Part shown: piece after piece, positions 33,363 through 50,656 of the stretch
How the letters are laid out: each line of letters begins with the position of its first letter
How positions within the stretch are numbered: the stretch's first letter is position 1
Source of the DNA: Halobacterium sp. DL1
GTDB taxonomy: Archaea; Halobacteriota; Halobacteria; Halobacteriales; Halobacteriaceae
DNA: 64,000 bases
Direction: 5' to 3'
Assembly: GCA_000230955.3 (NCBI GenBank)
Contig: CP007060.1
Coordinates: 496,001-560,000, forward strand
Translations under genes and position numbers: made by a program
The notes under the pieces: generated by a model
The model's database searches: none
Told to the model about the DNA's origin: nothing
The model's input: only the letters and a program-made list of their open reading frames with translations

Positions 33363-33860
33363 CTACCCTTCGAGGGCCTCGGAATCGACCGACTCCCGAA
33401 ACTCCTTCAAGATGTTCCGGATGGCCACCATGCTCACGTCTGCCCCCTGAGCCACGGTCGACTGCGTGAGCGATTCAGAGGCGAGATAGAGCGCCGTGCC
33501 AGCGACCCCATCATCCCCACGGGAACTCCCGAGGATTGCAGCGTCGTACATGTCGACGAGCTCGTGGGCTTCCGTGACGACCTCAGGGTCGACCTTGAGT
33601 GCGTTGGCGATATCATCGAGGCGGTCATGGACAGCGTCGTTTGGCTGCCGGAGTTCCTCGGCATCGAACTCATCCAGTGTCTCGTTCAGCGTTTCGAAGG
33701 CCGATTTAGCCTTCTCGACCGAGTCCGCACCGGTGATAGTCGTATTTCCGGTGCGACGACGATAGCGGCGGACGCTCGAGAAGAGATTCTCAGTGCTGAG
33801 AGAGCCGAGAAGGACTGGACATGTGGTCCCTACCAAGTGCAACCCAGGTACTTTTATCAT
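33363..33860 (-). CDS. TFB-like protein with a cyclin-type repeat
   Basis: The protein has up to 165 residues. The C-terminal half (GVAGTALYLASESLTQSTVAQGADVSMVAIRNILKEF) carries the pattern of a TFIIB/TFB cyclin-like repeat: A-x-x-LYLA, then V-S-x-x-IRN. A zinc ribbon and a first full repeat are not visible, so this is not a complete TFB. It lies divergent to the AddB-like gene. The start is uncertain: the ATG at 33860 coincides with a TATA-like sequence, and a later GTG/TTG could be used. Confidence 0.65.
   Translation of the reverse strand: MIKVPGLHLVGTTCPVLLGSLSTENLFSSVRRYRRRTGNTTITGADSVEKAKSAFETLNETLDEFDAEELRQPNDAVHDRLDDIANALKVDPEVVTEAHELVDMYDAAILGSSRGDDGVAGTALYLASESLTQSTVAQGADVSMVAIRNILKEFRESVDSEALEG
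33851..33858 (+). promoter_or_regulatory. TATA box of the AddB-like gene
   Basis: CTTTTATC lies 23-30 nt before a GTG at 33881, which supports that GTG as a leaderless start. The same bases overlap the putative start of the divergent TFB-like gene. Confidence 0.55.
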
Positions 33861-33880
33861 TGACAACCATTGGCCGCAGC

Positions 33881-36469
33881 GTGCCATTTCAGCGCGCGAA
33901 GCCAATCGACCAACTCTACGCAGATGTCGCCGACTACGAGCTGGTCGTCGTCCCTGACGCGCCGCTCGCTAGCGCCCTGAACCGCCGCCTCGAACGCCCC
34001 CACCTCGGAACGTTCGCCACCACACCGCGACGGCTGGCTGCCGGTCGTCGCGAGGAAGCCGAGGATCGCCTCGCGTTCCTCGAGCTCGTCCAACAGACGT
34101 CCCTCAACTGGAAGCGCGCCGCCTACGCTATCGGGAACATCCTCCAGTGCTGGGAACACCAGGGTCACCTCGACGCCGTTCTCGAGTACGAAACCTACGC
34201 CGACGATGCCACGAGACAGGCTCTAGAGCACATCAGGAGTCTCGTTACAACGTCGTCGCGTCTCGCAAAGTACCAGATTTCCGGCGACCGTGACGTGGCT
34301 GTGGTCGGGGAGTCCCAGCTCACTACTCTCGAGCAGTCTATCCTCCCGGACGAATACGACGCCTACGACGCTTTCAGCGGCCAATCGTTCGACTATCCGT
34401 CGTTCCACATCTTCAACTCCGCGACGGAGATCGCAGACACCGCCATTGACGCGGTCACCCAAGAGAACGCTGGAGATGTGGCGATAGTTCTGGACAGCGC
34501 CAGCGAGTACTCCTCCCTCATCGAATCTGGCCTCGAAGCCGCCGACCTCCCCTTCTACGGTGGCCCTGGGTTCGCCGACCATCCGGACCATCGAGCCTTC
34601 CTCCGTTTGCTTCGCATCGCACACGCGGGAACCGATACCTGCATCGAAGAAGTTCGGTCCGTCCTCACTAGCCTCGATTGTGCACCCGGTATCGAACACG
34701 ATGAGAAACGCCTCCACGAACTCGACCACGATGCAGTGTCGTGGGTGGTCGATTTCTGTACTGGAATTACCGACTACACGTTCGAAGAGGCGCTGAGTGC
34801 CTTTGAGACACGAGCGAACTGCGAGCTACCGGAATTTGGAGATGAACTGGACGGGCTTGGCATCGCTGACCAGCCGGTCACCGAGGCTGCCGTCAACCAG
34901 TTAGAATTCTATCTGCAGACCTACGAAGTGCCAGTTGAGCGCGAGAACGAGGGCGTGCTCCTGGCGGACGCGAAATCCGCCGCGTACGTAGACCGGCCAC
35001 TCGTCTTCCACCTGGGTCTCGACGAGGACTGGACGCACAGCGCGCCACAGCGCCCTTGGGTGGACGAAGACGCCCAGTACACGCGGAATATCCAGCAGTT
35101 CCAACTCCTCCTGCAGAGCGGCGCCACCCAGTACTACCTCGTCCAAGACGCCGAAGGCGGGTCTCCGATCACGCCGTGTCTGTACTTCGAAGAACTCCTT
35201 GAGGAGGAGTTCGACCAATTCAGCGACCTCGACGCCATCCACCACACGACGCGACGGAGCACGGGCGAAAAGGAGTTCAACAGAGAACCTCGGGGTGTCG
35301 AGTCCTCGTCCGTTCAGACGGTCAGTCAGTCCACGCTGAGCACGTACGTCAACAGCCCGCGCGACCACTTCTTCTCCCGGCTCGTAGATTCGCCCGACAA
35401 GGAGTACTTCCGGCAGGGGAATCTCTTCCACGACTTCGCCGAATACTACGTTAACCATCCCGACGCCGTCGACGACAACACAATCGAATCAGCGATCGAC
35501 CTCATAGTCGAGAAGACGCGAGCGTTCACGCGGTCCGTCGACGAGCCAACACGCCGTACGAGGTACCGCTTCGGCCTCGAGATGATTACCGACTATCTCG
35601 ATGAGACGCTCCCGGAGAATGATTCGTTCCTGACCGCGACCAGCGGCTGGGGCACAAATACGTTCGCGGAGCACTTCGACCGGCCGGTGGACTCCCCACT
35701 CACCGAGCGCTGGTTCGAGAACCACGACCTCGGCTTGAAGGGCAAAATCGACCTCGTGAGTGGCCCCACCTCACTCGTTGACCACAAGAGCGGGGGCCGC
35801 AAGCGTGCTTCCCAGGTGGTCAATGGTTCGGCCATCGACCCGCCGAGTGACCGTCCGAACTTCCAGGCGCTGGCGTACCTCGCACACTGGCGCTCGGTCA
35901 ATCCCGGCGAGGAACTGGATTTCACCTTCTTCCACTTCCTCGACCCCCTAGACAACGCTATCACCAGCGAAGCCGCCATCGATGACGCTCTGACGACGGT
36001 CACCTACTATCCGACGTCGTTCGCGGCGTTCGCGAAGTCCCGGGATACGTACGACCGGCTGGTCGAGGATGGCGCGAACAACTGCCAGAAGACCTTCTCG
36101 AAGGCCACCTACGACGACTACCGCAGGGTCTTCGAATTAGTCTCATTCCCGGAGAAGACAGACAAAAGCGCGCTGTTGGAATCCGAGTTCGCTGACCATC
36201 TGATCGAGGAGATGCAGTCGGTGGTTGGCGAGTACAAGTACGTCAGGTCGGGGTGTGAGCAGGCGCTCCGGCAACTCGCACGCGTTGGGGGCCAGAACTT
36301 CTTCGAGGACGATGTCGACGCCTTTGAAGAATTCGTTGAGGAGCGTATCTCGGAGTTGAATCGGCGCCGTGCTGGCGAGGAGCGATTCCCTGTCGACGGC
36401 CTTGGTGGCGAGCCGAACTACCGGTATGTGGACAACCGCGACCTCCTCTTGGAGGGCCGCCATGACTGA
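33881..36469 (+). CDS. AddB-like PD-(D/E)XK nuclease with inactive helicase-like domain
   Basis: The protein has 862 residues from a GTG start (PFQRAKPIDQLYADV). The N-terminal and middle parts resemble an inactivated UvrD-type fold with no Walker A motif. The C-terminal third is a RecB-family nuclease: SQSTLSTYVNSPRDHFF, then KGKIDLVSG with D at about 624 and LVDHKSGG with D634 and K636. It overlaps the downstream UvrD-like gene by 8 nt. Together they match an AddAB-type end-processing helicase-nuclease used in recombination repair. Confidence 0.82.
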   Translation: MPFQRAKPIDQLYADVADYELVVVPDAPLASALNRRLERPHLGTFATTPRRLAAGRREEAEDRLAFLELVQQTSLNWKRAAYAIGNILQCWEHQGHLDAVLEYETYADDATRQALEHIRSLVTTSSRLAKYQISGDRDVAVVGESQLTTLEQSILPDEYDAYDAFSGQSFDYPSFHIFNSATEIADTAIDAVTQENAGDVAIVLDSASEYSSLIESGLEAADLPFYGGPGFADHPDHRAFLRLLRIAHAGTDTCIEEVRSVLTSLDCAPGIEHDEKRLHELDHDAVSWVVDFCTGITDYTFEEALSAFETRANCELPEFGDELDGLGIADQPVTEAAVNQLEFYLQTYEVPVERENEGVLLADAKSAAYVDRPLVFHLGLDEDWTHSAPQRPWVDEDAQYTRNIQQFQLLLQSGATQYYLVQDAEGGSPITPCLYFEELLEEEFDQFSDLDAIHHTTRRSTGEKEFNREPRGVESSSVQTVSQSTLSTYVNSPRDHFFSRLVDSPDKEYFRQGNLFHDFAEYYVNHPDAVDDNTIESAIDLIVEKTRAFTRSVDEPTRRTRYRFGLEMITDYLDETLPENDSFLTATSGWGTNTFAEHFDRPVDSPLTERWFENHDLGLKGKIDLVSGPTSLVDHKSGGRKRASQVVNGSAIDPPSDRPNFQALAYLAHWRSVNPGEELDFTFFHFLDPLDNAITSEAAIDDALTTVTYYPTSFAAFAKSRDTYDRLVEDGANNCQKTFSKATYDDYRRVFELVSFPEKTDKSALLESEFADHLIEEMQSVVGEYKYVRSGCEQALRQLARVGGQNFFEDDVDAFEEFVEERISELNRRRAGEERFPVDGLGGEPNYRYVDNRDLLLEGRHD

Positions 36470-39329
36470 CCTCGAACCGAATCCGCGACAGCAGGAACTC
36501 ATCGATAGCACGGACGGCATCTACCGCGTTGATGCAGGGGCTGGCACAGGGAAGACGTTCACTGTTACCCGGCGGTACGCGAACATCGTCCAGCAGGACG
36601 ACGTCAGGCCCAAGGACGTACTATTGGTGACGTTCACGAACAATGCGGCCGCGGAGATGCGCGAGCGCATCGTCGAGCACTGCCACTACGGGATGCGCGA
36701 ACTCGGGGATGCCCCCATTCAGACGTTCCACTCGCTGTGCCATGACCTCCTCCAAGAGCATGGGCACGCTGCGCCAACCCATCTCGGTATCGACGACCGC
36801 ATCACGGGGTCGACTCGACTGGTCGAGGATGAGCTCGTCGAGGAGGCGTTGTTCCAGCAGTTCATTAACCGGTTCAGCGACGACCACCGTGAGTACGATG
36901 ATGTCTTCCGGGCCGTCTCTGATCCCGTCGAGCTACTGAGCCTTGTGAAACAGTTGGCCGCCAAGGGTGTGTTCCCCGATTCTGAGGGGTGGTATCGGGA
37001 CGGCGAGCGCCACCTCGACGGTGACTTCGACGCGTTCCAGACGCTGTTCGAGGAGGTGAACGAGCCACGGAATGGTGGGAGCAAGCAGTCCAAACTCCGC
37101 TCGAAGCTCGGGCAGTATGGCCGAAATGCGTGCTATCTCCCAGAGGCGCCCGACAAACACGAGGTGCGTGGCAGCGGTAAACAGGTCCCCGAGGACCTCG
37201 CTGGAGAGGTGTTCCACGCCGACCGCGAGCACCTGAAAGCGTTCGTCCACGACGTCTACCACGAATACCTCGAGTTCGCCCTACAGCGGAACTATCTGAA
37301 CTTCGGGTTCCTCCAATTGTTCGCGTACGTCCTGCTCTGCGAGAATCACCAACTCAGGGACGAGGTCGCCTTCGAGTACGTGATGATCGATGAGTTCCAG
37401 GACTCCAGTGAGATCCAGTTCAAGCTCGCGCTCCTGCTCGCCGACACCGACAACATCTGTGTAGTCGGTGACTGGAAGCAAAGCATCTACAGCTTCCAGT
37501 ACGCCGATGTCGACAACATCGTCCACTTCGAGGACCGCCTCGAACGATTCGTCGAGGAACTCAACAGCGACCACGAGCGAGTCGGCTTCCCGACCGACTC
37601 GGTCACGCCCATCGAGTTGACCGAGAACTACCGGTCCACCCAAGAGATCCTCGACTTCTCCGAGCACGCACTCCTCACGCCTGCCGCGAGCAGCGATAGC
37701 CTCAACGAGGAAGAAGTCCGGGACCGCATCGTCTCCCTGGATTCGAACGCAGCCCACGAGAACACGACTATCGAAGCGCTGCAGAGCGAAGACGAGCACG
37801 AGGCAGTCCTCGCAAGAATCGAGGACATCGTCGGCAACGACAACTACCAGATTGACGGCGCCGAGGACGACGACGAGGAAGGTGAGCTCCGGACGCCCCG
37901 GTACGAGGATATCGCGGTCGTCACAAGGACGCGTGATTTCGGCCGTGACCTCCTCCAGACCGCCGAGGAGTACGGCCTCCCGATGGCGTACGAGGGCGGT
38001 ATCGAGTTGTTCCGCACCGACCAGGCGAAACTCCTCATGGCGTGGCTCCGTATCCTCGAGGACGACGCCGACCGCGGTTGGGCAGTCGTCCTCGAAGATG
38101 CCGGCTACACGTTCGACGAGGTCGGCAACATCCTCGAGACTGGGGACTACCCCGAGAGTATGCGTTCGTTCCGTGAGAGCCTTCGAGAGATGGAGACGCT
38201 CGGCGCCGTTGCTCGGCGCGTCTTCCAGCGGTACGGCTACGACGGCGCGACCGCTGACGTCGTCCTCCACACTATCCAGTCCATCCACGACACGACCACG
38301 CTGACGCGGGGCGACCTCATCCGCTTCATCGAACGCAGCATTGAGGCTGGCAGCACCCACGAAGTCCACACTGGGACAGGGACGAACTCGGTGACCGTCC
38401 AGACCATCCACGCCACAAAGGGCCTGGAGTATCCCATCGTCATTCTCGCGAACATGAACAGTGGGCGCTTCCCGCCCTCCAGCGGTGGCGCGAACACAAT
38501 CACCTACGACGACCCAATCGGGCTACGCCAACACGAGATGTATTCAGCGGACGCCCACGGCCACCCCCACATCTATGATAACTGGCGCACCGACGTCCTC
38601 CAGGCGTGTCTCCCCCGGAACTACGACGAGGAACGCCGACTGCTGTACGTCGCCATCACGCGCGCCGAGAGCCACGTCATCTTCACCGCCGGCGACGACC
38701 CGAATACATTCCTCGAGGAACTTCCCGTGGAGATCAAGTCGGTTACGCCCGACCCCGGTGCGATTACGGCGAGTGAGACTGAGCAGACGACTCTCGATGT
38801 TAGTGTCCCGACGCCTGATGGCCCGGTAGGGCACACGCCGCATACGCTGATGCGTGACGACGTCTTCGAGGACGTCGACGATGGTCGCGGAACCGAGTTT
38901 GGCAATCAGGTCCACGACTTCGCTGAAGCATATGCCCTTGGCGAAGAGGTGACACCCTCGAACAAGGACGAACGCCACGTCGCAGCGTTCTTAGATGGTC
39001 TGGAGGGGGAGTTACTGGTAGAGGAGGACGCTTCGCTTCCCCTGACTGTTGAAGGGGAGCAGGTAACGGTCTCAGGCATCGTGGACCTCATTCACGTCAC
39101 ACCGGATTCCGTGGAGATTGTCGACTACAAGACCGACCGCGGCCGTCATGGCGAACCTGAGTACCGAAAGCAGCTGAGCGTCTACTATCACGTTGCGAAG
39201 TCCGTGTATCCCGACCGCGAGATTTCGGCGAGTATCTTCTACACGGATCAAGACGAGCGACAATCGATTGAGCCCTTGACGATGGCAGTTCTCGAAGACA
39301 TAGTAGGGAGAATCGAACGTCCTGGCTAA
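36462..39329 (+). CDS. AddA-like UvrD/REP helicase with C-terminal nuclease domain
   Basis: The 955-residue SF1A helicase has Walker A DAGAGTGKT at 24-32, motif II YVMIDEFQDSSEIQ near 306-319, motif III GDWKQSIYSFQYAD, motif V TIHATKGLEYPIVI and motif VI LLYVAITRAESHV. The last 100 residues add a RecB-like nuclease with GIVDLIHV and EIVDYKTDRG (about 875-895). Such a two-nuclease partnership is the AddAB arrangement. The ATG lies 8 nt inside the upstream gene, so translation is coupled. Confidence 0.9.
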   Translation: MTDLEPNPRQQELIDSTDGIYRVDAGAGTGKTFTVTRRYANIVQQDDVRPKDVLLVTFTNNAAAEMRERIVEHCHYGMRELGDAPIQTFHSLCHDLLQEHGHAAPTHLGIDDRITGSTRLVEDELVEEALFQQFINRFSDDHREYDDVFRAVSDPVELLSLVKQLAAKGVFPDSEGWYRDGERHLDGDFDAFQTLFEEVNEPRNGGSKQSKLRSKLGQYGRNACYLPEAPDKHEVRGSGKQVPEDLAGEVFHADREHLKAFVHDVYHEYLEFALQRNYLNFGFLQLFAYVLLCENHQLRDEVAFEYVMIDEFQDSSEIQFKLALLLADTDNICVVGDWKQSIYSFQYADVDNIVHFEDRLERFVEELNSDHERVGFPTDSVTPIELTENYRSTQEILDFSEHALLTPAASSDSLNEEEVRDRIVSLDSNAAHENTTIEALQSEDEHEAVLARIEDIVGNDNYQIDGAEDDDEEGELRTPRYEDIAVVTRTRDFGRDLLQTAEEYGLPMAYEGGIELFRTDQAKLLMAWLRILEDDADRGWAVVLEDAGYTFDEVGNILETGDYPESMRSFRESLREMETLGAVARRVFQRYGYDGATADVVLHTIQSIHDTTTLTRGDLIRFIERSIEAGSTHEVHTGTGTNSVTVQTIHATKGLEYPIVILANMNSGRFPPSSGGANTITYDDPIGLRQHEMYSADAHGHPHIYDNWRTDVLQACLPRNYDEERRLLYVAITRAESHVIFTAGDDPNTFLEELPVEIKSVTPDPGAITASETEQTTLDVSVPTPDGPVGHTPHTLMRDDVFEDVDDGRGTEFGNQVHDFAEAYALGEEVTPSNKDERHVAAFLDGLEGELLVEEDASLPLTVEGEQVTVSGIVDLIHVTPDSVEIVDYKTDRGRHGEPEYRKQLSVYYHVAKSVYPDREISASIFYTDQDERQSIEPLTMAVLEDIVGRIERPG

Positions 39330-39380
39330 GTCCGGGACTCTGGCCGAGGATATATTCCGAGCGGCCGTAAGCTGAAGATA

Positions 39381-39488
39381 GTGTATCTTTACTCCCCCGG
39401 CGAAATCGACCGCGAACGCGCCTACCACCAAGCCGTCATCCAGTGCGCCGACGACGTCGTCCTCTCGACCGAGGTAAATAATGACTGA
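39381..39488 (+). CDS. Very small ORF after the AddA-like gene
   Basis: A GTG-started 35-codon frame (MYLYSPGEIDRERAYHQ onward) has GATATATTC centred about 28 nt upstream, as expected for a leaderless transcript. Its stop overlaps the ATG of the next small frame by 8 nt. Codon use and charge resemble haloarchaeal coding DNA. I recognise no family. It could also be the remnant of a larger gene. Confidence 0.35.
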   Translation: MYLYSPGEIDRERAYHQAVIQCADDVVLSTEVNND

Positions 39489-39624
39489 GAAAGATGATTC
39501 CGTGGAGCAATCCACTGACGAGGCCGGAATCACCGATGAGGACATGGCGCGAATCGGGGTGTATCTCCGGAAACCCAGGCACACTCGGAGTGTTGACGAC
39601 CTCCGTCCCTCCTCGGAGAAATAA
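39481..39624 (+). CDS. Small acidic ORF (47 residues)
   Basis: The frame begins MTEKDDSVEQSTDEAGITDED and ends with a basic LRPSSEK tail. Acidic N-terminus, no cysteine and no membrane segment. It follows the 35-codon frame with an 8-nt overlap, so the two would be one transcript. No known family. Confidence 0.4.
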   Translation: MTEKDDSVEQSTDEAGITDEDMARIGVYLRKPRHTRSVDDLRPSSEK

Positions 39625-40035
39625 CTCACGCGAAGACAGCGAGGCGTCAATTGGGTCTCCTAATCTATCAGTGAGGGAGTCCCAACGAGACCTGAAGTCA
39701 ATCAGGTCTTACTCCCTCTGCTCAATGTCGGCCCTATTCACACAAAACCCTGGGGCAAAGAATCAGTAGTTCGAAATCCTGTCGTCCAGCGCATGACTTC
39801 CACGTTCCCCCTATCCTCTGTACTTACCGACAGCGAGTGTCGGAGAAGAGGGGGTTGTACGACAGGACGGTTCCTCGAACTAGCCGGTAAGTAGAGGTGC
39901 ATTGACCGTAGAGATTCGTACCAGTTTCAGGTAATGTTCTGAGCGCCGTGCAAGACACAGAGGCTAGATTCAGCACGAGAGCTGCGGTCTGTTTACAAAA
40001 AGGGGTGAATTCTGTTCTGGTGCCGGGGAGAGGCG
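39625..40035. other. Noncoding stretch between the small ORFs and the ferritin-like gene
   Basis: I see no supported gene, no tRNA and no strong hairpin in these 411 bases. The composition is less GC-rich than the flanking genes. Confidence 0.4.
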
Positions 40036-40731
40036 CTACTCGCACTCGACGATGAAGCCGCCAGCGGCGTCGAGAACTTCGTCCGGAGCCAACGGCTCGT
40101 CGAAGGCACTGGGGAACGGGGAGTCACCGTTGAGCAGGTTGAGATACGACGCGTGGCGTGCCTCGACCGTGGCAATAGTCGCACCGGCCGTTAGTAGTTC
40201 CTCGGTTTCGATCAGACTGATAGCGCCGTCGTAGGCTGAGACACCGGTGTTTTCGAGGACGGCGGCGACACCGAGGAACTCGCTGACGTTGTCGTATCCG
40301 AATTCGTAGCACGCTTCTTCGACGGGGTCCCCGCCGAGATCCTCGATAACGGACGTCAACGTGTCGACGTGGGTCTCCTCGTGGTCGCGAACGTCTTCGA
40401 GGTTCGATTGGACATTCCCCTTAACGCGGTTGGAGAATCCTCTGAGAACGTCGGCTTTCCTGAAGTCCTTCGCGTCGAAGCATTCGAGGGCGTCACGGTA
40501 GAAGGCGTATTCGAGGTGTTCGAGAGTCAGTGCGAAGTTCAGCACTTCCACGTCGTCGAAATCGTCGTCGGTCCCATCGTGAGCGAGTGCTGTGTTCGAG
40601 CTGCCGATAGCCAGCGCGAGCGCTCCTGCTCCTGCCGCTGCCGACCGACGGAGGAACGATCGCCGCGATGAAAGATCGGCGTTGCGAATCTTCGATACAA
40701 GGGCCTCATCTACCATGGAATCTTCATCCAT
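40036..40731 (-). CDS. Tat-exported ferritin-like (four-helix) protein
   Basis: This protein has 231 residues from the ATG at 40731. A twin-arginine signal with R23-R24 (SSRRSFLRRS) and a hydrophobic stretch AAAGAGALALAIGSSNTALA directs a folded protein to the exterior. The mature part is a ferritin-like four-helix bundle with E-x-x-x-Y repeats: LTLEHLEYAFYRDAL, DHEETHVDTL and ATVEARHASYL, giving E and H metal ligands. Proteins of this group are often called DUF4439 or desiccation-related; the exact function is unknown. A second ATG at 40716 is also possible. Confidence 0.82.
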   Translation of the reverse strand: MDEDSMVDEALVSKIRNADLSSRRSFLRRSAAAGAGALALAIGSSNTALAHDGTDDDFDDVEVLNFALTLEHLEYAFYRDALECFDAKDFRKADVLRGFSNRVKGNVQSNLEDVRDHEETHVDTLTSVIEDLGGDPVEEACYEFGYDNVSEFLGVAAVLENTGVSAYDGAISLIETEELLTAGATIATVEARHASYLNLLNGDSPFPSAFDEPLAPDEVLDAAGGFIVECE

Positions 40732-41070
40732 GGCCCCTAGTAGACAGGCCACGAGGATAGTAAGAAACGGCGTAGTTGCTGGTAGTACGGGCTTATTTGC
40801 CCTTTGTCTGCGCGACTCGCGCCCGATATCTTGCACGGGTGTCTTACCAGGTAGTCGATAGTTCGTAGTTTCCCGCGTTACATCGCTCACCTGTACTTAG
40901 CGATTCAGAGCTAGATTTGTTGGTTGTTGAGTGCCCAGAAAGTCGTCCCTATCGGGACCCCTTGTACAAATATATGGGCTCGGTTGGGGGTGTGTGGCGG
41001 TGGCAACAACCGCACCGGCCCCCCTCTGCCAGATTTGCTCGCGAGCGTCGCCACGCGGCGAATCGCGCGT

Positions 41071-41081
41071 GTTTTATATAT
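41071..41081 (+). promoter_or_regulatory. Strong TATA box without an obvious gene
   Basis: GTTTTATATAT is the most AT-rich block for several hundred bases and lies 28-38 nt before a long hairpin. A transcript starting about 25 nt downstream would begin just before that hairpin. Confidence 0.5.
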
Positions 41082-41108
41082 ACTCCATGGCCGGCCGGGT
41101 CGCGCGCG

Positions 41109-41155
41109 GCCCACGGTGCTCAGCGACCTTCGGGAGCACGACGGCCGCCGTGGGC
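41109..41155 (+). ncRNA. Candidate structured RNA or hairpin element
   Basis: GCCCACGG at 41109-41116 pairs with CCGTGGGC at 41148-41155. Inside it, TGCTC at 41117-41121 pairs with GAGCA at 41134-41138. The element follows a TATA box at the right distance. There is no known RNA family match that I can name, and a DNA-level role is equally possible. Confidence 0.35.
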
Positions 41156-41479
41156 TTACAGTAAAGGGGGGGGCAGGTTTCGCTTGACACCTTTACACCG
41201 TTACGCGGTCTGCCAATTCCAAGAAGGTTCTATGCAACCTGCTTCGTGGCGATTCGTAGGATTTCGTCTCCTTTGCTCGTAGTTCGCACTGCTACTAGTC
41301 TCTCCCCAATGTAGAGCGGGTTTCAGGGACAGTAGTGTCCTCATATGGTACGCAGAATACGTGGCAGCGGTGACTCGGTCTCAACGATTTTCGTCCCACC
41401 AACGGGCCGTAGCTTCGCTTGCGCTCCGCACGGTCGGTGCGGTGTAGTTTGTGCTTGTGGCCTTAACCACACCTCTAAG

Positions 41480-41510
41480 GGGGAATGCGACCGCTCCGGT
41501 CGCATTCCCC
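41480..41510. repeat. Perfect 14-bp inverted repeat with 3-nt loop
   Basis: GGGGAATGCGACCG and its complement CGGTCGCATTCCCC are separated by CTC. It lies beyond the 3' end of the DUF7845 gene and could terminate transcription or form an extruded cruciform. Confidence 0.75.
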
Positions 41511-41516
41511 TTGGGT

Positions 41517-41562
41517 GCGGTTGGGGGCGCAACGACCGAAGGGAGGCCGCGCCCCCAACCGC
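41517..41562. repeat. Perfect 14-bp inverted repeat with 18-nt loop
   Basis: GCGGTTGGGGGCGC at 41517-41530 pairs with GCGCCCCCAACCGC at 41549-41562. It sits 7 nt after the previous hairpin, making a tandem pair. Confidence 0.75.
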
Positions 41563-41646
41563 CAGCGCACTAACCCCCCTCTGAGCCGGGAGAATCCGCC
41601 GGAAAACAGGGTTCCGAACAGTGTTGCCACTACGCCGGAGGGCGCG

Positions 41647-43302
41647 TCAGCCGGGGTTTACGTAGTAGTGAACGCGGCTGTACCGCCCATCACCGAGCAG
41701 AATCTGCGCGGAGAGGAACCGGCTAGCGTCGTGCCGGGTCGCTTTCCAGAGACGGTAGCCGGTCTTGACTGCACGATTCACGTTGTCGCTGTAGTCGCTG
41801 AAATCGAGCGTCAGATTGTCGTTTCTCCGGGATACGTCCACGCGGTGCCGTTCAGCCCAGGCGTAGAACTCGGCGGCGGCCGAGTCTCGGCCACGCTCCG
41901 CCGCGTCGATGGCCTTCGCGCTCGCCTCGACGGCCCGGCGGGTCGCGTCGCGTGCCTCCTGGACAGCTTCGTGAACAAGCTCTGCAACTCGGGTCGAGCG
42001 GAGGCCCACCTCGGCGTACTTCTGCTCAACGAGGTCGTCTAATCGACGTAGCGCCCGACGCACAGAATCAACGTGACGGTCTGTAGCGTCCGCGATATCG
42101 CGTGGTGATACCTTGCCGCCGTCAGTCACCAGCATCTCAAGACTCTCCCACTCGACGGGGCTCAGGCCGTCTGTGAGGTGGCGCACAACCACGCTTTCGT
42201 GCGTGGTTTCTAGTTGGTCGAGATCGATAACGGTCGGTTCCGGTTGGCCGTCGAGCACGTCGGCCGCGAAGTAGGCGTCCGGCACGAAGTCACCCACGTC
42301 CCGTTGGGGAGCGAGGTCGAGCCCTGCCTCCAGGAGGACGGCCCGAACCGTCGCGTCCAACTCGTCGCGCAGATTCTCGAGGTCGCCCCACCGAAGCGTC
42401 TCGTCATGAAGAGAGACCTGATAAGATGCGCCGAGTTTCGGGTGGCTGAGCGCGTTCGACTCGTCGAGCGAGACCGCTTCCCGCGAGTAGTAGTGCTTGA
42501 CCTCCTTCGGCAGTTCGTGGGCGGGGAACGCCTCACGGATTCGCTCCGGGCCAAGCGTGACCGTCGAGTAGTAGCCGGGGCGGTTCCGCCCATCTTCGTC
42601 CGTGTCGTTCTCTACGAGCTTTCGGTAGCCGCTCCGGTCGCTAGTGAGCAGGTGGTACATTTGTGCGAGTGGACCGTCTCTCGCGTGAATCGGACCGCTG
42701 GCGTCCTTGTGGACGCGCACGTACCGCTCGGCGTCTTGGATATTGCTGTACTCGTGGAGGCGGTCGAAGTTCCAACCCGGCACGCCCACGGCGTTGACGC
42801 CGAGGCGTAGCAACTCAGGGTAGCGAGTGGCTTCGATGTTCGACCCGATGATAGCCGCATTGATGGCCTCCTCGATGCCGTCCGGGACGTTGTACTCAGA
42901 AACGGTGCCGCTGCTCGACCGGACGTGCATCCCGGCCCATCGCGGCGCGAAGTGAACGTTGAACCGTTGGAGACCGCCCCGATCGTCGGGGTCGTACTCG
43001 GAGGGGTCGCCAAGCGGGTCTTCCTTCGGGTGGCGTCGGACGTCAAGACGGAACTCCCGCATCTCGCCGGCTAACTCCCACCGCGTGCCGGTGGGAGTCA
43101 CGTCCTCCGGGGGAACGATATTTGACGGCTGGTAGGTGAGTCGGGCCTGCCAACGTTCGCCATCGGCCTGGAACTCACACCACGCGCTCTTTCCGTCGAG
43201 CTCGTTCACGCGAGCGTGCAGGGCGAAGTGGGGAGAGAGGCCGCGCTTCGCGTAGATGAGGTTGGCCTTGAACTCGTGCCACGCGGGTTCAACGGCCTTC
43301 AT
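41647..43302 (-). CDS. DUF7845-type element protein with C-terminal helix-turn-helix
   Basis: This 551-residue protein begins MKAVEPAWHEFKANLIYAKRGLSP; the HEF...L.YA.RGLSP opening is that of the DUF7845 family of haloarchaeal plasmids and proviruses. A middle region is beta-rich. Residues about 370-430 (SPVEWESLEMLVTDGG, then SPRDIADATDRHVDSVRRALRRL) form a winged HTH, and a long coiled helix follows. A role in element replication or regulation is likely but unproven. It overlaps the upstream zinc-finger gene by 4 nt. Confidence 0.78.
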   Translation of the reverse strand: MKAVEPAWHEFKANLIYAKRGLSPHFALHARVNELDGKSAWCEFQADGERWQARLTYQPSNIVPPEDVTPTGTRWELAGEMREFRLDVRRHPKEDPLGDPSEYDPDDRGGLQRFNVHFAPRWAGMHVRSSSGTVSEYNVPDGIEEAINAAIIGSNIEATRYPELLRLGVNAVGVPGWNFDRLHEYSNIQDAERYVRVHKDASGPIHARDGPLAQMYHLLTSDRSGYRKLVENDTDEDGRNRPGYYSTVTLGPERIREAFPAHELPKEVKHYYSREAVSLDESNALSHPKLGASYQVSLHDETLRWGDLENLRDELDATVRAVLLEAGLDLAPQRDVGDFVPDAYFAADVLDGQPEPTVIDLDQLETTHESVVVRHLTDGLSPVEWESLEMLVTDGGKVSPRDIADATDRHVDSVRRALRRLDDLVEQKYAEVGLRSTRVAELVHEAVQEARDATRRAVEASAKAIDAAERGRDSAAAEFYAWAERHRVDVSRRNDNLTLDFSDYSDNVNRAVKTGYRLWKATRHDASRFLSAQILLGDGRYSRVHYYVNPG

Positions 43303-43583
43303 CTGCGGGCCTCCTGGGCCTCCTGGGCGTCGACGCGGTTGTACTCCGGCCCCTTGTCGGGAGTTAGATCGCTAAGGTCGTCTACATCTTCGAAGAGGGG
43401 CCTTTGGTGGTCGGAGGTCTCACCGAGCGGGGTCAGTCCAAAGTCCTCCGGGTCGTGGTCGGCAATGTGGAGGTCTCGGCTCTCGTTCGGGCTGAAGTCG
43501 TATCCGCAGGCCGGACACTCGGTGAGAATCAGCACTTCGCGGCTTCTGGAGAACTGAAGGGTCCGGAGAGTCACGCGGACCAC
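43299..43583 (-). CDS. Small zinc-finger protein preceding the DUF7845 gene
   Basis: The protein has up to 94 residues. A single treble-clef-like or C2H2-like site, ECPACGYDFSPNESRDLHIADHD, gives C-x2-C and H-x3-H. The acidic remainder has no motif. Its stop overlaps the DUF7845 start (ATGA), so the pair forms one transcript. The first 16 residues are weakly supported, and a GTG at about 43535 may be the real start. Confidence 0.65.
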   Translation of the reverse strand: MVRVTLRTLQFSRSREVLILTECPACGYDFSPNESRDLHIADHDPEDFGLTPLGETSDHQRPLFEDVDDLSDLTPDKGPEYNRVDAQEAQEARR

Positions 43584-43753
43584 CCCCAGATTTCGAGTAT
43601 GGGATTCGCATGATTGCGCCGACCCCCGACCAGGGAGTGGTTGAAGTACCGCTCAACGGCCCTGTTCCCGAATACCCGGAAACGGCGTTTTCGTGGGGTA
43701 GAGTTGCCTCTATCCGTATCTTGGGTTGAAGTAAGAACCGCCGAGTGGGTGTA

Positions 43754-43867
43754 TGGGCCCTGGCGGATTTGAACCACCGCTCACCCGGTGTCTCACAGTC
43801 CCGCCACACAAAGTGACAGACAACTGATATGAGCCGGGGGCTTTAAACCAGACTAAGCTAAGGGCCC
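43754..43867 (-). tRNA. Intron-containing tRNA with anticodon CAT (Ile2 or elongator Met)
   Basis: The reverse complement gives the acceptor GGGCCCT/AGGGCCC with discriminator A, a D stem GCTT/AAGC, an anticodon stem CCCGG/CCGGG around CTCATAA, and a T arm GGTGG/CCGCC around TTCAAAT. A 38-nt insert at 43790-43827 interrupts the loop after position 37, the canonical archaeal intron site. The GGGCCC acceptor resembles archaeal tRNA-Ile, suggesting Ile(CAU) with agmatidine, but haloarchaeal elongator tRNA-Met is also known to carry an intron. I leave the amino acid open. Confidence 0.85.
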
Positions 43868-44943: not shown

Positions 44944-45345
44944 TTACTCCTCGGCGTATGTTTCGAGTGGATGTCGGTCTAGACCAACGATGTCGTAGTC
45001 TTTCTCGCTCGATAGTACGGTTCCATCTCCGGTTGCGGCCATGCCGGCGTGGAGTGCGTCGAACGGTGTCATCTGGTACTCCTCAAGGAAGGTTGCCGCG
45101 GCGAGCACTGCCTCCTCGTGTTCAGCTGGCTGGATTGGGACTACTTCGAGAAGGTTGGCGATCGCTCGTGGAGCATCGATCTCGTACTCGGATTGCTCTC
45201 GGTCATAGAATAGTACCAGTACCTCTGCGTATGCCAGGATGGAGGTATAAATATCGTCTCGGTCCTCAAGTGCGCGGATTGCAGACTCACGTAGCCAGTC
45301 CTCGTCTTTGAGGAGTGCGGTGAGAAAATCCGTCTCTACGTACAC
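44944..45345 (-). CDS. VapC-type PIN-domain toxin
   Basis: The 133-residue PIN nuclease starts MYVETDFLTALLKDEDW with the first metal ligand at D6. Other ligands are E in ILAYAEVLVLF, D in PFDALHAG and D in SSEKDYD. Length and motif order match VapC toxins that cleave RNA. It lies 3 nt after the AbrB-type antitoxin gene, in the usual antitoxin-first order. Confidence 0.88.
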   Translation of the reverse strand: MYVETDFLTALLKDEDWLRESAIRALEDRDDIYTSILAYAEVLVLFYDREQSEYEIDAPRAIANLLEVVPIQPAEHEEAVLAAATFLEEYQMTPFDALHAGMAATGDGTVLSSEKDYDIVGLDRHPLETYAEE

Positions 45346-45348
45346 GGG

Positions 45349-45615
45349 TTAGTCCTCGCGCTCTTCTGCCCGTTCGCTAGTTTCTTCGCGTACCTCCTGG
45401 TCGATTTGCTTGCGGGCATCAGTTTTCAGTTGCTCAGCGTCCTGTCCTTCGAAGGCGTCGCCAACGGCTGCACGGATTCCATCGAGGGGGTGATCGTCGA
45501 CGGGGAATAATGCGACGTGACTAGGGAGTTCGACAATTCTGTATTTGTCCCCGAAGCGTTCGCGGACATCCTTGGGGAGGTAAATCCGGCCGCGTTCGTC
45601 AGTGGATTTCGACAT
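45349..45615 (-). CDS. AbrB/VapB-type antitoxin
   Basis: The 88-residue protein has an N-terminal swapped-hairpin DNA-binding domain (DERGRIYLPKDVRERFGDKYRIVEL), then VALFPVDDHPLDGIRAAVGDAF, and an acidic helical tail that would block the toxin. It represses its own promoter in this family, and a palindrome surrounding the TATA box supports that here. Confidence 0.88.
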   Translation of the reverse strand: MSKSTDERGRIYLPKDVRERFGDKYRIVELPSHVALFPVDDHPLDGIRAAVGDAFEGQDAEQLKTDARKQIDQEVREETSERAEERED

Positions 45616-45631
45616 TCTACCCCCAGATTAG

Positions 45632-45659
45632 TACGGGAAGAATATAAAGAATTCCCGTA
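45632..45659 (-). promoter_or_regulatory. VapBC promoter with TATA box inside a palindrome
   Basis: TACGGGAA at 45632-45639 and TTCCCGTA at 45652-45659 form a perfect 8-bp inverted repeat. The 12-nt spacer contains the TATA sequence (TCTTTATATT on the - strand), about 30 nt before the antitoxin ATG. Binding of the antitoxin to both arms would cover the TATA box and block TBP. Confidence 0.65.
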
Positions 45660-45841
45660 GAGCACCGAATATTCCCACACCGGCGTATTCTGGCCGTTCG
45701 AAGGGAGATACAGGACCTCACGGAGGATTTCACTATCACTAGGCGCTCCAGATTTCTCGATAGTCTGCCACACCCAGAACAGTCAAGAATCCCCCGTTGG
45801 GCTAGTCAGGGGATCACTCTAAGTACTCCCCAAGGGAGTCT

Positions 45842-47240
45842 CAGTACCTCACAAAGCATCCTCGGCTAGCTGTTTCTGCGGCCTGAGTTCTGTGTCGAAG
45901 CGGTTGTACTGACGGTCTCGACGAGAGAATTACGGACGGATCGACGGAGAGCTGTCGCTGTCGGCGGCGGTCAGCCGCCGACGCGACAGCGTCGCCACTC
46001 ACTCCGCTGGCTTGCTCGGTCGGTGGTTAGCGGTGGAATCGGTCGTCAGGTGGCCGATTCGCGGGGACGGCCCGACGCACCGCGAGGGCCGTCCACGCAG
46101 CTCGTCGAATCATATTGACGAACTCCTTGTACGGCCACCACCAGAGGCGACGCCCGCCTCGGCGGGGCGTCGCCACATACTCGTAGTGAAGGTACCGCCA
46201 GACGTTCTGTAAGAGGAGACTCACCACCACGTACAGCAGCCGTACCGTTGGATCTCGTGTTGTCGTTGTCGCTATCGCTTGCTCAAACAAGCGATAGCTT
46301 GACTCGATACCGAAGCGTTTCGAGTAGTGGTATCGAGCGTCCCGTGGTGAGTCGATGAACGGCGCGTCAGCGGCGTAGCCGTGACGCGCCACACCGTTCT
46401 CGTCATACTTCCCATTTAGGTACGTACAGTCGATGTAGACGGGAAAATCGACGGTCCAGCTGTGACCGTCGAGTTTCCCCGTCAGATCATGCTGAATGAC
46501 GCGACTCCATCCTTCCGAGAGCTCTTGCTGAATCGCCTCACCCCACCGGATGATCGGGATCACGTACGCGTAATTGTGCGCCTGAAGCAGCGTGAGACAC
46601 TTACTGTCGTAGAATCCGCGATCAAGGTAGACGGCCTTGACCCCGGCGTCAAGGCCGTCGAGGACACCGAAGAACTCAGCGAGGACACTACTTGCGGTAT
46701 CGCCGTCTTTGAGACGGCGTACCGCCAGCGTGTAGCGTTTGTTCTTCACACGCGCGTAGAGTGTGGCATAGGCGTGGAACGCAGTGGTTCCACGCTTCGC
46801 TACCGAGTGATAGAGGCCGTCTGTGTCGTCTTCGTCACCGTAGTAGGGCCGCAGGTGGAGGTCTGCGCAGACCTCCACCTGTTCGGGGAGCAATTCATCG
46901 AGATCCTTTCGCAGGAGCGTGTTAGCGACTCGTTCGAGCCGTTCCGGCTCGAACTTCGTCCGAAGATGGTAGAGGACCGTGTTCCCAGCGGGTGAGTTCT
47001 GGCTCGACGCACAGAGCGTAGAGACAGAGGTCCCGTCGGCGCAAGCGCCGACGAGGACCTCATAGATGTCTTCAGCAGTGATTTCAGCGTTATTGGCTAA
47101 CGAGAGCGAAACTTCCTCGTCAAGGCGGTTGACGAGAAAGTTAAGAAGCTGGTCCTCGTGGATCTCACCGTCTGCTTGTTTGGTTTTAGACACACCTTCA
47201 GCAAGCAGACGTTCTAACTAAGCGGCTTTGTGAAGTACTG
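45842..47240 (-). mobile_element. ISH3-type insertion sequence, copy C (1399 bp)
   Basis: It has the same ends and length as copies A and B. It alone is bounded by a perfect 5-bp duplication, AGTCT at 45837-45841 and 47241-47245. It sits five codons before the stop of the 126-residue gene of the ATPase operon, and excision would restore that gene. Confidence 0.93.
46027..47193 (-). CDS. ISH3 family transposase (copy C)
   Basis: The 388-residue DDE transposase is identical to copies A and B. It is the most recent of the three insertions judging by its intact target-site duplication. Confidence 0.93.
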   Translation of the reverse strand: MSKTKQADGEIHEDQLLNFLVNRLDEEVSLSLANNAEITAEDIYEVLVGACADGTSVSTLCASSQNSPAGNTVLYHLRTKFEPERLERVANTLLRKDLDELLPEQVEVCADLHLRPYYGDEDDTDGLYHSVAKRGTTAFHAYATLYARVKNKRYTLAVRRLKDGDTASSVLAEFFGVLDGLDAGVKAVYLDRGFYDSKCLTLLQAHNYAYVIPIIRWGEAIQQELSEGWSRVIQHDLTGKLDGHSWTVDFPVYIDCTYLNGKYDENGVARHGYAADAPFIDSPRDARYHYSKRFGIESSYRLFEQAIATTTTRDPTVRLLYVVVSLLLQNVWRYLHYEYVATPRRGGRRLWWWPYKEFVNMIRRAAWTALAVRRAVPANRPPDDRFHR

Positions 47241-47579
47241 AGTCTCACCATCATCGAGAGAGACCTCACCGTCCGACATTTCACTGCTCTGGACGTTCTC
47301 CAGTAACTCATCTTGGGTGACGTCGACCGCGCTCTCGGCTGTCTGAACGGCACTACCAAGCATCGTCGGTACCGACCCATCGAACGCCTGCTCGAGAACC
47401 GTCTTGTAGTACTGCAGGTCTCGAAGCGCTTCTTTGAGGTTGTCGAGTTCGCTGTTGACCTCGCTGATATTGTGCTGCGCAACCGACACGTGGTACTGGG
47501 TGTTCTGTGCCTGTTTGTGCTCTCTGGCCTTGTCTTCGAGCGCGTCGACGGCCGTGGGTAGTGATTGGGTTTCGGTCAT
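47214..47579 (-). CDS. Last gene of the ATPase operon, 3' end replaced by insertion sequence C
   Basis: The present product has 121 residues, the last eight encoded by insertion-sequence DNA. Removing the element and one AGACT copy restores a 118-codon lead followed by PLGST and a stop at 45819-45821. The protein is a charged coiled coil (HNISEVNSELDNLKEALRDLQYYKTVLEQAF) with an acidic tail. It has no catalytic motif and may be a scaffold or adaptor for the large ATPase, whose stop codon adjoins its ATG. Truncation affects only a few C-terminal residues, so function may persist. Confidence 0.7.
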   Translation of the reverse strand: MTETQSLPTAVDALEDKAREHKQAQNTQYHVSVAQHNISEVNSELDNLKEALRDLQYYKTVLEQAFDGSVPTMLGSAVQTAESAVDVTQDELLENVQSSEMSDGEVSLDDGETQYFTKPLS

Positions 47580-50500
47580 TACAGGTCCTCCGTCACGGAG
47601 AGAATCTTCTGGCGCTTCTGCTCGTAGTCGCTGTATTCACCGAGCTGTTTAATCCGGTGTTCGAGATCCGCACCGGTCGCGTGGTCTTGCTCCTGAAGAT
47701 CGTCAATCAGCGAGTCGAACGCCTCGTAAATCTCCCAGGCACCCTGCTCGTGCTGGCTTCGTGCAAAGTCATGGAGTCGAGCAACGAGCGTCATACCCGT
47801 CGTGTCCTCCATGTTCTGGAACTGCTCGACGTCGTCGCTGAACGCCGATAGCTTCACGTCCTCAGGCGATTCGGTGAGCGTCTCGTAGGCATTCTCGTAA
47901 CTCGGCTTAATCGGTACGTCCATCGCGCCGGCACATTCGTACAGGGTCTCGAACCACTCGGCCAGGCCGTCGACAGTATGGCTGCTGTCGTACCAGCGCT
48001 CCACGGGTTCGAGCGCTTCTTGAATGTGGGATGCGTCTTCCTCGACGGTGAGGCGGTCGAGTTCGGCAGCGTAGTCGGAAATCCGGTCGAGCAGGCTCGA
48101 CAGCTTCGTGCTCGCCTTGTTGCGTGTCGTGCCGACCTTATATGCGTCCGCGAGGTCGGCGATGTCGATCATCAGCGCTGCGTCGACATGCGCTTGCGGT
48201 TCGTCCGCAATATCGCGCCGTGCTTCCGAAAGGCGCTCGTAGTCCACGACGTTCGACTTGAGGAGGAAGAGCCCCTCGATCAGGTCGTCAATGTCGCTGG
48301 ACGACATCGTCAGGTCGCTGAACGCCTGCCCGAACGCACTATCTCTATCGAAGTGCTCGGATAACGGCTTGCCGTAGGGCTGATTACTGTTGTAATCCTC
48401 AAAAATGAGCCCAGGCGGGATTCCGCCATCGTCAATCTCGACGCCACGAGCCGCGTTGATCAGGAAGCATTGGGCCAGTACCAGCGTCTTCTCGATGTTG
48501 AGCTCCGACGGGAGACAGTTCTCAATCTCCTCGCGCATCTCATGTTTGAACTGAGCGACGTTCGTGTCAGCCCACGCGCGAAGCTGGTCGAAATCCGTCG
48601 TCTGAGGGTCGAACACGTTGAAGAGCCCGTACTCGAGCATGCTGGTGTAGAGATCGGCATGCTTTGATCCCCACTCAAGTTCGATGTCGATACTTGCTTG
48701 GCGCTGTTGGTCGCCCTGAATCGAGACGGGGATGCTGTCGCCGCGAGCGTAGTAGATACCTCCCGCAGAACGCGTTGACGCATTGGGATTACTGAGGCGG
48801 GTTGGTTCGTGCCAGCGTTCTAGTGTCGCGACCGCACCGTCGTGGAGCGTGTCTGAACTCGGGTATTCTTCTCCGTTCGTCACCCAGTCCTGGAACTCTT
48901 GGAACTTTTGTTGGCGCTCCCGCTCTTCCTCCGTGAGTTCCGGTTCGTCAATGACTACGACTTCGTCCTCCTCGTCATCCTCAGTTTCGTCCGCATCAGG
49001 CTCCTCTGACTCGCTCTCATCTTCTTCGGTACCCTCGTCGGTTTCCTCTTGTTCGTCGACTCCGTGGTCCGGCGTCGGCGGGTTCTTGATCTTCTCGATT
49101 ACGGCACTGCCCCTTCCGCGCTCGAAGACCACGTAGTCACCCTTGACCGGTGCGTTGTCGCTATCAGGGAGGTCGATGCCGAAGGTTTCGAGAATACCGG
49201 CCTTTACGCCGATTCCGTCGTCGACTGGGACGCCGTACCACCGGCTGACGTCCTGGTAAATCTGATCGTACTCCATGCCAATCTCGAACGTCGGAGTGTC
49301 GACGAACGAGTTCGACTTCATCGCCTCGTAGGGCGGCCAGCTCGACTTTAAACAGTGTTTGACAACCCGCAGGAGTAACAACCGCGGCGTCTTCCGGTTA
49401 CTCCCCTCGTCGTTCAGTTGCCTGTATGCGACGTGAATGAAGCGCTCGTTGAACGGGTAGAGTTCGTCGAACGCTCCCTCGACTTCCTCGGGGGCACCTT
49501 CAGCGTCAGTGTTCCGCTTGATCGCGCCAAGATACGACCGGGCGAGAGCGACGGACGCGTCGTCGTCGAGGAAGTACGCCTCCCCGTTCTCATCGGTCAT
49601 TGTGAGATACCCCTCCGAGCGCCCCTTCATGTACGTCGCAGCGTCCTCACGAGCGAGCGCGTCGTTGATGTTGTCCTGTTCCCATCCGATAGTCCACCCG
49701 AGAACGATGTCGAAGCTGCTACTTCCGAGCTCGAAGATGAGGTCTAGGAGTTGCTCCTTCAGGACGCTGAAGGTCGTGAGGTCCTCGCAGATGAGCGTTG
49801 GTCGAACGCCTTTCTCCTGATATCGCTGCGAATAGTCTTGGAGCAGTTCTTTGAAGTCGCCGACGAGGTTTCGAGAGAGATACTCGTGAGCTTCGTTCTT
49901 GAGGACCGAGTAGAACACGTCCTTGTTCTCGGTGAGCTTATTCCCGAAGCTCAACTGTAACCGAAGGTCCCGGTAGTCCGTCCGGGTCAAGAGGTTGAAA
50001 TCCGGGTTTTCGTCGCGAGATTCCAGAGCCTCCTGGTACTCCCGGATGTTCTTCGCGAAGATTTCGCGAAGGTCACTCTTGTCTCCTCGGGCCTTCGTCA
50101 ATTCCCGAATTTCTTCGTCCCTGAGGTGTTCAGTTGACCAGATGCCGCGAAGGTATTCAACAATGGCAGCCGCTGCGTCGTCGGGGTTGAGGTCGTCGAT
50201 GTTGCGGACGTCGGTGTCAACATCCAGGGGCTCATTCAGGATGTCGAGGATCTGGTCCATGCGGGTCTGGCTGCGTGACACGTGGAGTGCCACGCGGTTC
50301 TCAATTCCCCCGTCGTCGTCTCCGTAGCCGTTAATCTGGTACTTGGTCCACTCACAGAGTTGCGACTTGCCAGATCCCGGTTCGCCACGCAGGATAAAGA
50401 TGCGATTCGGGTCGTCGAGGCTTGACGCCGTAATGGCATTGAGTACGTCTTCTTGGGTAACGAACTCACCAGATACGCCGAGCGGCGTCAGGTTGTCCGC

Positions 50501-50656
50501 GTAAATCCGGTCGATATCGACGTGTGTCTCCCTGAACTGTTCTGGCGTCTTCTTCTTCGTGTGCGCCTCTGACGTGATGAAGTGGTCGACTTGTTGGTCG
50601 TCCCAGTAACTGGGCATCTCGTTGCCTGCCGTGGATTTCGGAGTCTGTTGGCTCAT
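47579..50656 (-). CDS. 1025-residue P-loop ATPase of an uncharacterised operon
   Basis: Walker A GEPGSGKSQL starts at 91, preceded by NRIFILR. A Walker-B-like TLICEDLTTF lies near 287-296, and FDIVLGWTIGWEQ near 315-327 could be a sensor strand. An acidic, low-complexity hinge spans about 530-585 and precedes a helical C-terminal half. Size and the N-terminal ATPase recall BREX BrxC/PglY and DndFGH/Pbe-type defence ATPases, but no diagnostic motif of those families was recognised. It overlaps the upstream gene by 1 nt. No methyltransferase, nuclease or phosphorothioation gene accompanies it in the window. Confidence 0.8.
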   Translation of the reverse strand: MSQQTPKSTAGNEMPSYWDDQQVDHFITSEAHTKKKTPEQFRETHVDIDRIYADNLTPLGVSGEFVTQEDVLNAITASSLDDPNRIFILRGEPGSGKSQLCEWTKYQINGYGDDDGGIENRVALHVSRSQTRMDQILDILNEPLDVDTDVRNIDDLNPDDAAAAIVEYLRGIWSTEHLRDEEIRELTKARGDKSDLREIFAKNIREYQEALESRDENPDFNLLTRTDYRDLRLQLSFGNKLTENKDVFYSVLKNEAHEYLSRNLVGDFKELLQDYSQRYQEKGVRPTLICEDLTTFSVLKEQLLDLIFELGSSSFDIVLGWTIGWEQDNINDALAREDAATYMKGRSEGYLTMTDENGEAYFLDDDASVALARSYLGAIKRNTDAEGAPEEVEGAFDELYPFNERFIHVAYRQLNDEGSNRKTPRLLLLRVVKHCLKSSWPPYEAMKSNSFVDTPTFEIGMEYDQIYQDVSRWYGVPVDDGIGVKAGILETFGIDLPDSDNAPVKGDYVVFERGRGSAVIEKIKNPPTPDHGVDEQEETDEGTEEDESESEEPDADETEDDEEDEVVVIDEPELTEEERERQQKFQEFQDWVTNGEEYPSSDTLHDGAVATLERWHEPTRLSNPNASTRSAGGIYYARGDSIPVSIQGDQQRQASIDIELEWGSKHADLYTSMLEYGLFNVFDPQTTDFDQLRAWADTNVAQFKHEMREEIENCLPSELNIEKTLVLAQCFLINAARGVEIDDGGIPPGLIFEDYNSNQPYGKPLSEHFDRDSAFGQAFSDLTMSSSDIDDLIEGLFLLKSNVVDYERLSEARRDIADEPQAHVDAALMIDIADLADAYKVGTTRNKASTKLSSLLDRISDYAAELDRLTVEEDASHIQEALEPVERWYDSSHTVDGLAEWFETLYECAGAMDVPIKPSYENAYETLTESPEDVKLSAFSDDVEQFQNMEDTTGMTLVARLHDFARSQHEQGAWEIYEAFDSLIDDLQEQDHATGADLEHRIKQLGEYSDYEQKRQKILSVTEDL

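Follow-up and report, generated by a model that had tools for sequence, protein, structure and literature searches.

A probable Rep-Arvir-type replication origin and an orphaned conserved viral element beside a tRNA gene in a Halobacterium genome

What is the function of the hairpin-rich DNA that follows a DUF7845 gene on the main contig of the 3.16 Mb genome of Halobacterium sp. DL1? A preliminary description of the 64-kb stretch of DNA analyzed here (the window) had treated this DNA as a single block, either an origin, an RNA gene or a terminator array. Our analysis resolves it instead into two neighbouring viral elements. The reading as an origin holds for 41457-41646, which is linked to DUF7845 and matches the origin of the Natrinema betapleolipovirus SNJ2 position for position, whereas the left half is a separate element that we call module A. 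Very probably, a rolling-circle element of the betapleolipovirus, or Rep-Arvir, kind has its double-strand origin at 41457-41646; the same high confidence extends to the explanation as a whole, with module A as a second element and the locus as a truncated provirus. The evidence comprises homology, position, covariation, an open rep gene with conserved residues and the tRNA context. Read leftward on the minus strand, the locus begins with a tRNA gene, a CxxC gene and rep. The next 190 nt are non-coding and contain two long inverted repeats as well as a short hairpin; a spacer of 258 nt separates them from module A (Table 1).

Table 1. Features of the locus in window coordinates; signed positions count from the rep stop codon.
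Feature	Coordinates	Strand	Basis or remark
Intron-containing tRNA, read as elongator tRNA-Met (CAU), integration site	43754..43867	-	Rfam tRNA, 51.5 bits
Small CxxC/zinc-finger-like gene, 94 aa, the element's gene nearest the tRNA	43299..43583	-	tblastx homology
rep, DUF7845 = Rep-Arvir rolling-circle initiator, 551 aa, open	41647..43302	-	PF25227
Conserved box AGTGGCAACACTGT shortly 3' of the rep stop codon	41618..41631	-	alignment, 13 loci
Inverted repeat, perfect 14-bp, 18-nt loop	41517..41562	-	+85 to +130 after rep stop
Inverted repeat, perfect 14-bp, candidate Rep binding repeat	41480..41510	-	+137 to +167
Origin hairpin GTGG-TTAAGG-CCAC, conserved, putative nick site	41457..41470	-	+177 to +190
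Spacer, module A to origin	41199..41456	.	no convincing match; structural genes here in collinear provirus L017
8-bp tandem repeats GTGTAAAG GTGTCAAG CGAAACCT of module A	41175..41198	-	period 8 common to relatives
C-tract of module A (plus strand: G-run)	41166..41174	-	sequence
Two-helix hairpin, GCCCA/TGGGC base	41109..41155	-	covariation in relatives
TATA box of module A	41072..41082	-	precedes next viral gene in relatives; gene missing here
Module A, conserved viral element, orphaned	41065..41194	-	covariance models R1/R2: 109.7, 89.0 bits

The rep product matches its family model with 349.8 bits (curated cut-off 27), and DUF7845 was reported in 2026 as the rolling-circle initiator family Rep-Arvir (PMC13107129). 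The gene has a normal coding pattern and codon composition (GC3 0.775), and every alignment column that is invariant among 40 reps is present in its product. The KHYY motif occupies residues 269-272, with Y271 aligned to the catalytic tyrosine Y283 of SNJ2; SNJ2 E25 corresponds to E10, and the position of SNJ2 E303 is occupied by G here and in most other rows of the alignment. Judged by its sequence, the initiator of the window looks intact. The AlphaFold2 model (pLDDT 85.4, pTM 0.75) displays the fusion of a TBP-like catalytic domain with a MarR-like winged helix that characterizes Rep-Arvir, as residues 1-328 resemble TBP (1qn3; a middling Z of 8.6, rmsd 4.3 over 174 residues) and residues 375-462 resemble MarR (2fa5; Z 9.7, rmsd 2.4 over 84 residues). 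In a library of viral structures the model matched A0A345MNV4 (E 6e-4), a protein named as an Inoviridae Rep_trans relative (PMC13107129). A Foldseek search against solved structures returned no match at E 0.001 or better, and no Rep_trans chain is among the 50 structure matches listed for the model.

Relatives of this rep, including the replication proteins of betapleolipoviruses and pL6 plasmids, occur in 21 phage and 14 plasmid records. Searching genome contigs and viral contigs with the single Rep sequence gave no matches, and an alignment-based search located 58 loci in the former and 10 in the latter; a DNA search of plasmids gave no match. In the rep tree, the window's protein is a long branch placed without firm support (89/88) beside L189 and L190, two elements of Halosimplex aquaticum, and two others. 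Both H. aquaticum elements carry a 289-aa gene (4989-5858) between tRNA and rep, whose product looks, by eye, like a DNA-deazapurine base-exchange enzyme. Another betapleolipovirus-like rep, accompanied by matches to NTPase and spike, was seen on a contig titled Rhizobium sp. S152 (L192; NZ_JAUDRZ010000006.1), probably an assembly contamination.

The most important hairpin of the block, 41457-41470, had been overlooked in the preliminary description. In SNJ2, the DUF7845 protein together with 210 bp 3' of its gene is reported to confer autonomous replication, and mutations in the stem or the loop of a hairpin at +176 to +197 to abolish it (PMC13107129). The mutated bases given in Table 1 of that report imply, by our deduction, a core of TGG..AA..CCA from +186 (PMC13107129); in the SNJ2 sequence record the core TGGCTAAGGCCA starts at +186, and in the window TGGTTAAGGCCA starts at +178. 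Among the 20 reps first compared, the window's included, the loop sequence lies at +175 to +191 in 19, the exception being LSV-48N. The proposal that other DUF7845 loci be searched for the same hairpins was carried out with success on a set of 71 reps (window included, each element represented once so far as discernible; repeats of counted elements such as L183, L195, L196, L201, L202 and L204 and the cut-off or partial L232 and L234 were left out): 63 have a hairpin loop that differs from CTAAGG by no more than one base, 62 of them in rep orientation and one inverted (L205). The 62 loops in rep orientation comprise 58 CTAAGG, two CTAAAG, one CTAAGA and the TTAAGG of the window, while the stem varies (GG/CC, CC/GG, GC/GC) around the constant loop. 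At the remaining 8 reps the pattern search gave no hairpin, and by eye an inverted motif is present at four of them (L197, L198, L200 and L210). Including L205, the hairpin is therefore inverted relative to rep at five loci, from Natrinema, Natrialba and Halorhabdus. An SNJ2-type origin should have a conserved hairpin downstream of rep, near +175 to +190, with a loop resembling CTAAGG; the window has the position and the stem, and its loop is one base off. The T at that loop position is absent from the other 62 loops found, so this copy may be damaged or inactive. Its hairpin provides a naturally occurring variant, with a single loop base changed, of an archaeal origin that was described only recently.

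The two perfect 14-bp inverted repeats were located exactly where they had been described, and they do adjoin the end of the DUF7845 gene, on the minus strand 85-167 nt downstream of its stop codon. They are the longest perfect inverted repeats in the 64 kb (loops of 3-30 nt), and repeats of 14 bp arose in none of 20 first-order Markov simulations of the window. Folded as DNA, the two are far better than shuffled sequences (z -7.9 and -5.0), and the right-hand region folded as RNA gives z -5.0 against shuffles. The earlier impression that the density of structure is unlike the rest of the window is borne out for this right half only: by folding energy, the 200-nt segment at 41401 ranks 8th of 638, whereas the segments at 41001 and 41101 take ranks 58 and 204 between them.

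The inner repeat, 41480-41510, corresponds to the variable inverted repeat just upstream of the hairpin in SNJ2-type origins, where the binding repeat is described as variable in sequence with its pairing retained (PMC13107129). The same pattern emerged across the relatives analyzed here, and the arm pairing of 41480-41510 covaries (20 loci). For hairpin and upstream repeat together (19 distinct rows), 80.9% of cells are paired, compared with 70.9% in shuffles and at most 49.8% in slid controls; in both percent paired and covariation score, the observed pairing exceeds all 500 shuffles and all slid controls. Further toward the gene, the conserved box lies inside the first of the conserved motifs of SNJ2, close to where the transcript was mapped to end (PMC13107129).

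We infer from these likenesses that the DUF7845 protein would bind the inner repeat, perhaps also the outer one, and open hairpin 41457-41470, in whose six-base loop Y271 would nick the DNA; the 3'-OH left at the nick would then prime rolling-circle synthesis. Beside the tRNA the module would be dormant while integrated, working only after excision. The long repeats might instead be transcription terminators of the rep operon, their likeness to an origin being secondary, in keeping with an SNJ2 transcript end about 50 nt after the rep stop (PMC13107129) and with the outer repeat, of which a similarly long counterpart occurs at this position in some relatives only (HGPV-1, HHPV3) and which is thus not a core part of the origin. 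However, scanning for T-tract terminators gave none at either repeat, and a terminator array is not supported as the main reading. The hairpin at +177 retains a constant loop on a changing stem and is the counterpart of one whose mutation abolishes replication in SNJ2 (PMC13107129). We consider termination very unlikely as the explanation of both repeats, although the outer repeat could act as a terminator.

Module A, the second element, is shared with many haloarchaea. A 131-position model built from six copies of the genus Halobacterium, the window's among them, matched at 66 places, spread over 49 of the order's 392 genomes; a wider model yielded, among the places listed, 145 in 95 of the 392 genomes and 33 of 95 genera. 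The neighbourhoods of 106 of these 145 listed places were examined, and a betapleolipovirus-type NTPase gene lies upstream of module A at 97 (61 of 66 plus 36 of 40). Matches of module A to phages by blastn were at chance level only, and no description of it was found in the open-access literature searched.

In relatives, the NTPase stop codon is followed in order by GACNGCG, 8-bp tandem repeats, a C-tract, a hairpin, a TATA box and the next gene. Identity at a lag of 8 is 0.438 (shuffled mean 0.260, sd 0.011) and at the other lags from 3 to 14 is 0.18-0.32, as counted in 61 rows with L162 kept despite a misplaced stop. The repeat unit differs by lineage (for example GTGTAAAG, TGGATACG, TTGGCAAC and TTCCAACC) while the 8-bp period does not, as expected for a binding site that changes together with its protein. 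The C-tract is present in 60 of 61 relatives, and the base of the hairpin reads GCCCA..TGGGC in 48 and TGGGC..GCCCA in 11. Both helices show two-sided changes at 15 of 15 pairs, in an alignment of 57 rows from 53 sources that retains several reverse-strand or second matches and was fitted to the structure tested. The TATA box was found in 56 of the 61; its median distance from the first base of the NTPase stop codon is 133 nt, and in the 44 relatives with a short gap it precedes the match to ORF6 by a median of 41 nt. Betapleolipoviruses thereby share a second conserved non-coding element, with a fixed 8-bp period and a covarying hairpin based on GCCCA.

The window's copy has neither neighbour: no NTPase coding sequence was recognised beside it, and the next viral gene is missing. 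Hairpin 41109-41155 exists as described, but as plus-strand RNA with its flanks it folds no better than shuffled sequence (z -0.31); as DNA of the other strand it reaches z -2.3, and what distinguishes it is conservation and covariation in relatives, not fold energy. In line with the statement that nothing here encodes protein, no gene is supported at this hairpin. The TATA box, at 41072-41082, stands in relatives before a gene of the other strand, which makes the promoter a leftward rather than a rightward one. This bears on the idea of a small RNA gene read rightward from about 41100, for which a TATA-like sequence with a hairpin some 26 nt downstream would speak. Rfam returned chance-level matches only and none at gathering score, the fold is ordinary, and such an RNA would in relatives be antisense to the NTPase end, with the TATA box serving the leftward gene; we regard an RNA gene as extremely improbable. 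A reading frame upstream of module A in G006 (AYLFEEPRGVG...) was considered as a gene and rejected, as all its matches, the two G006 copies excepted, have E 0.046 or worse.

Module A most likely controls the next viral gene, a role to which we give about an even chance and which is compatible with an origin in the right half. Module A would be the promoter and operator of a gene of the ORF6/orf18 type, its 8-bp repeats the binding sites of a regulator and its hairpin the predicted end of the NTPase transcript, with the window's copy a leftover. The conserved placement of the TATA box before that gene is in favour, and in SNJ2 module A appears to lie outside the published minimal replicon, so it would be dispensable for replication there. 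Yet the repeats stand about 90-100 nt upstream of the TATA box, which is far for an archaeal operator, and module A occurs without the NTPase gene at 9 of the 106 examined places (the window, L086/L110, L111, L134, L142, L237, L251, L263 and L265) and also in L189 and L190, beside rep and origin. L111 and L263 still have a short fragment of the next gene, as remnants would, and L190 has part of a Harhisp1-like integrase adjoining an insertion sequence; the places lacking the NTPase may be remnants or relatives without capsid genes.

A cis signal for processing or packaging of betapleolipovirus genomes is a doubtful alternative. Here a cognate protein would read the 8-bp repeats, and the GCCCA hairpin would be the site of single-strand interruptions in virion DNA: GCCCA is the published motif of such interruptions in HRPV-3 and SNJ2 DNA and was noted in HHPV4 too (PMC5867852, PMC7547991). 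A covarying hairpin on this motif makes the purpose of the interruptions directly testable, and were this its role, capsid-less elements that retain rep, origin and module A, such as that of the window, L189 and L190, would be satellites carried in helper pleolipovirus particles. Module A is unlikely to be a single-strand (lagging-strand) origin or a site that stabilizes the element. A covarying hairpin on rolling-circle elements, L189 and L190 included, where no capsid gene was found, would suit it; against it, the model finds no module A in many rep loci (28 matches, 74 sources), the orientation of module A relative to rep is not constant, and in SNJ2 module A seems to fall outside the segment that replicates and is stably maintained, making a lagging-strand origin less likely.

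How did module A come to lie alone beside the origin? It normally sits between the NTPase gene and the next gene, and it was most likely left here after the structural genes were lost, which would make the locus a truncated provirus. Rep and module A were both found by model at 30 loci and lie on opposite strands at 28; only the window and provirus L202 (= L017) have them on one strand, so that the window calls for either an L017-like layout or a rearrangement. In the simplest reading, the structural genes between origin and module A were lost from an L017-like provirus. The spike, NTPase and integrase genes and the att sites of a complete betapleolipovirus provirus were not found at the locus: the Harhisp1 integrase as a tblastn query revealed no integrase in the 64-kb window, and no direct repeat of at least 12 bp that could mark att sites was detected there, so excision may be impossible. 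Across 13 loci, direct repeats of at least 13 bp at the tRNA were limited to ones of 13-14 bp, in two. By tblastx, 39300-43760 gave no match beyond the rep, origin and CxxC regions.

The tRNA (anticodon CAU read by eye) is taken as the integration site of the element. Relatives show tRNA, rep and origin in this sequence beside genes for tRNA-Arg, -Pro, -Ala, -Tyr, -Thr, -Val and -Ile, and tblastx detects stretches homologous to the CxxC gene, whose product has no Pfam match, at the corresponding position of provirus loci. G006 has, at the same tRNA, a decayed sister of the element, with a rep fragment joined to the CxxC gene, and G010 has part of one.

Among known systems, SNJ2 shares with the window a DUF7845 initiator, an origin directly downstream, the conserved early box and a variable inverted repeat followed at almost equal distance by a hairpin with a six-base loop. 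The window differs in its loop (TTAAGG rather than the SNJ2-type CTAAGG), in much longer perfect repeats and in that no structural genes or integrase were found near its origin. The closest viral reps are those of Harhisp1 (54% identity), HRPV-3 (51%) and HGPV-1 (51%); these are complete viruses, and in Harhisp1 and HRPV-3 module A points against rep, while the Haloarcula virus Harhisp1 resembles the window in having a CxxC gene before rep. Provirus L017/L202 of Halobacterium bonnevillei PCN9 apparently shares the genus, and it shares the unusual strand layout of rep, origin and module A and a position beside a tRNA. Its structural genes and NTPase lie between origin and module A, however, and its rep is only about 50% identical. 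The Haloquadratum pL6 plasmids also have a DUF7845 replicase and, in PL6B, a CTAAGG hairpin downstream; unlike the window they are episomal, and no module A was found in PL6B. On this reading the hairpin block becomes a named, testable replicon, accompanied by a second conserved viral element.

Several observations concern the surroundings. The stretch 59251-59314 (plus) resembles 43700-43763 (minus) as an inverted repeat 15 kb apart (77%), the latter comprising the tRNA 3' end and about 55 bp of downstream arm with a GGATAGAG..CTCTACC palindrome; no tRNA was found at 59251-59314, possibly an att or arm remnant of another element. Perfect inverted repeats recur in threes with matching spacings at about 15833-16443, 31624-32234 and 46271-46881, suggesting three copies of an insertion sequence with a transposase-like ORF (46027-47193). 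The flanks of the element (33821-39329 and 44944-50656) contain genes for a UvrD-like helicase and an accompanying PD-(D/E)XK protein, a PIN-domain gene paired with a small partner, and a large ORF that looks P-loop-like; together they may form a defence island. Relatives of the helicase-nuclease pair adjoin an origin remnant beside tRNA-Ala in G007 (L013, 9139-9255), where no rep was seen.
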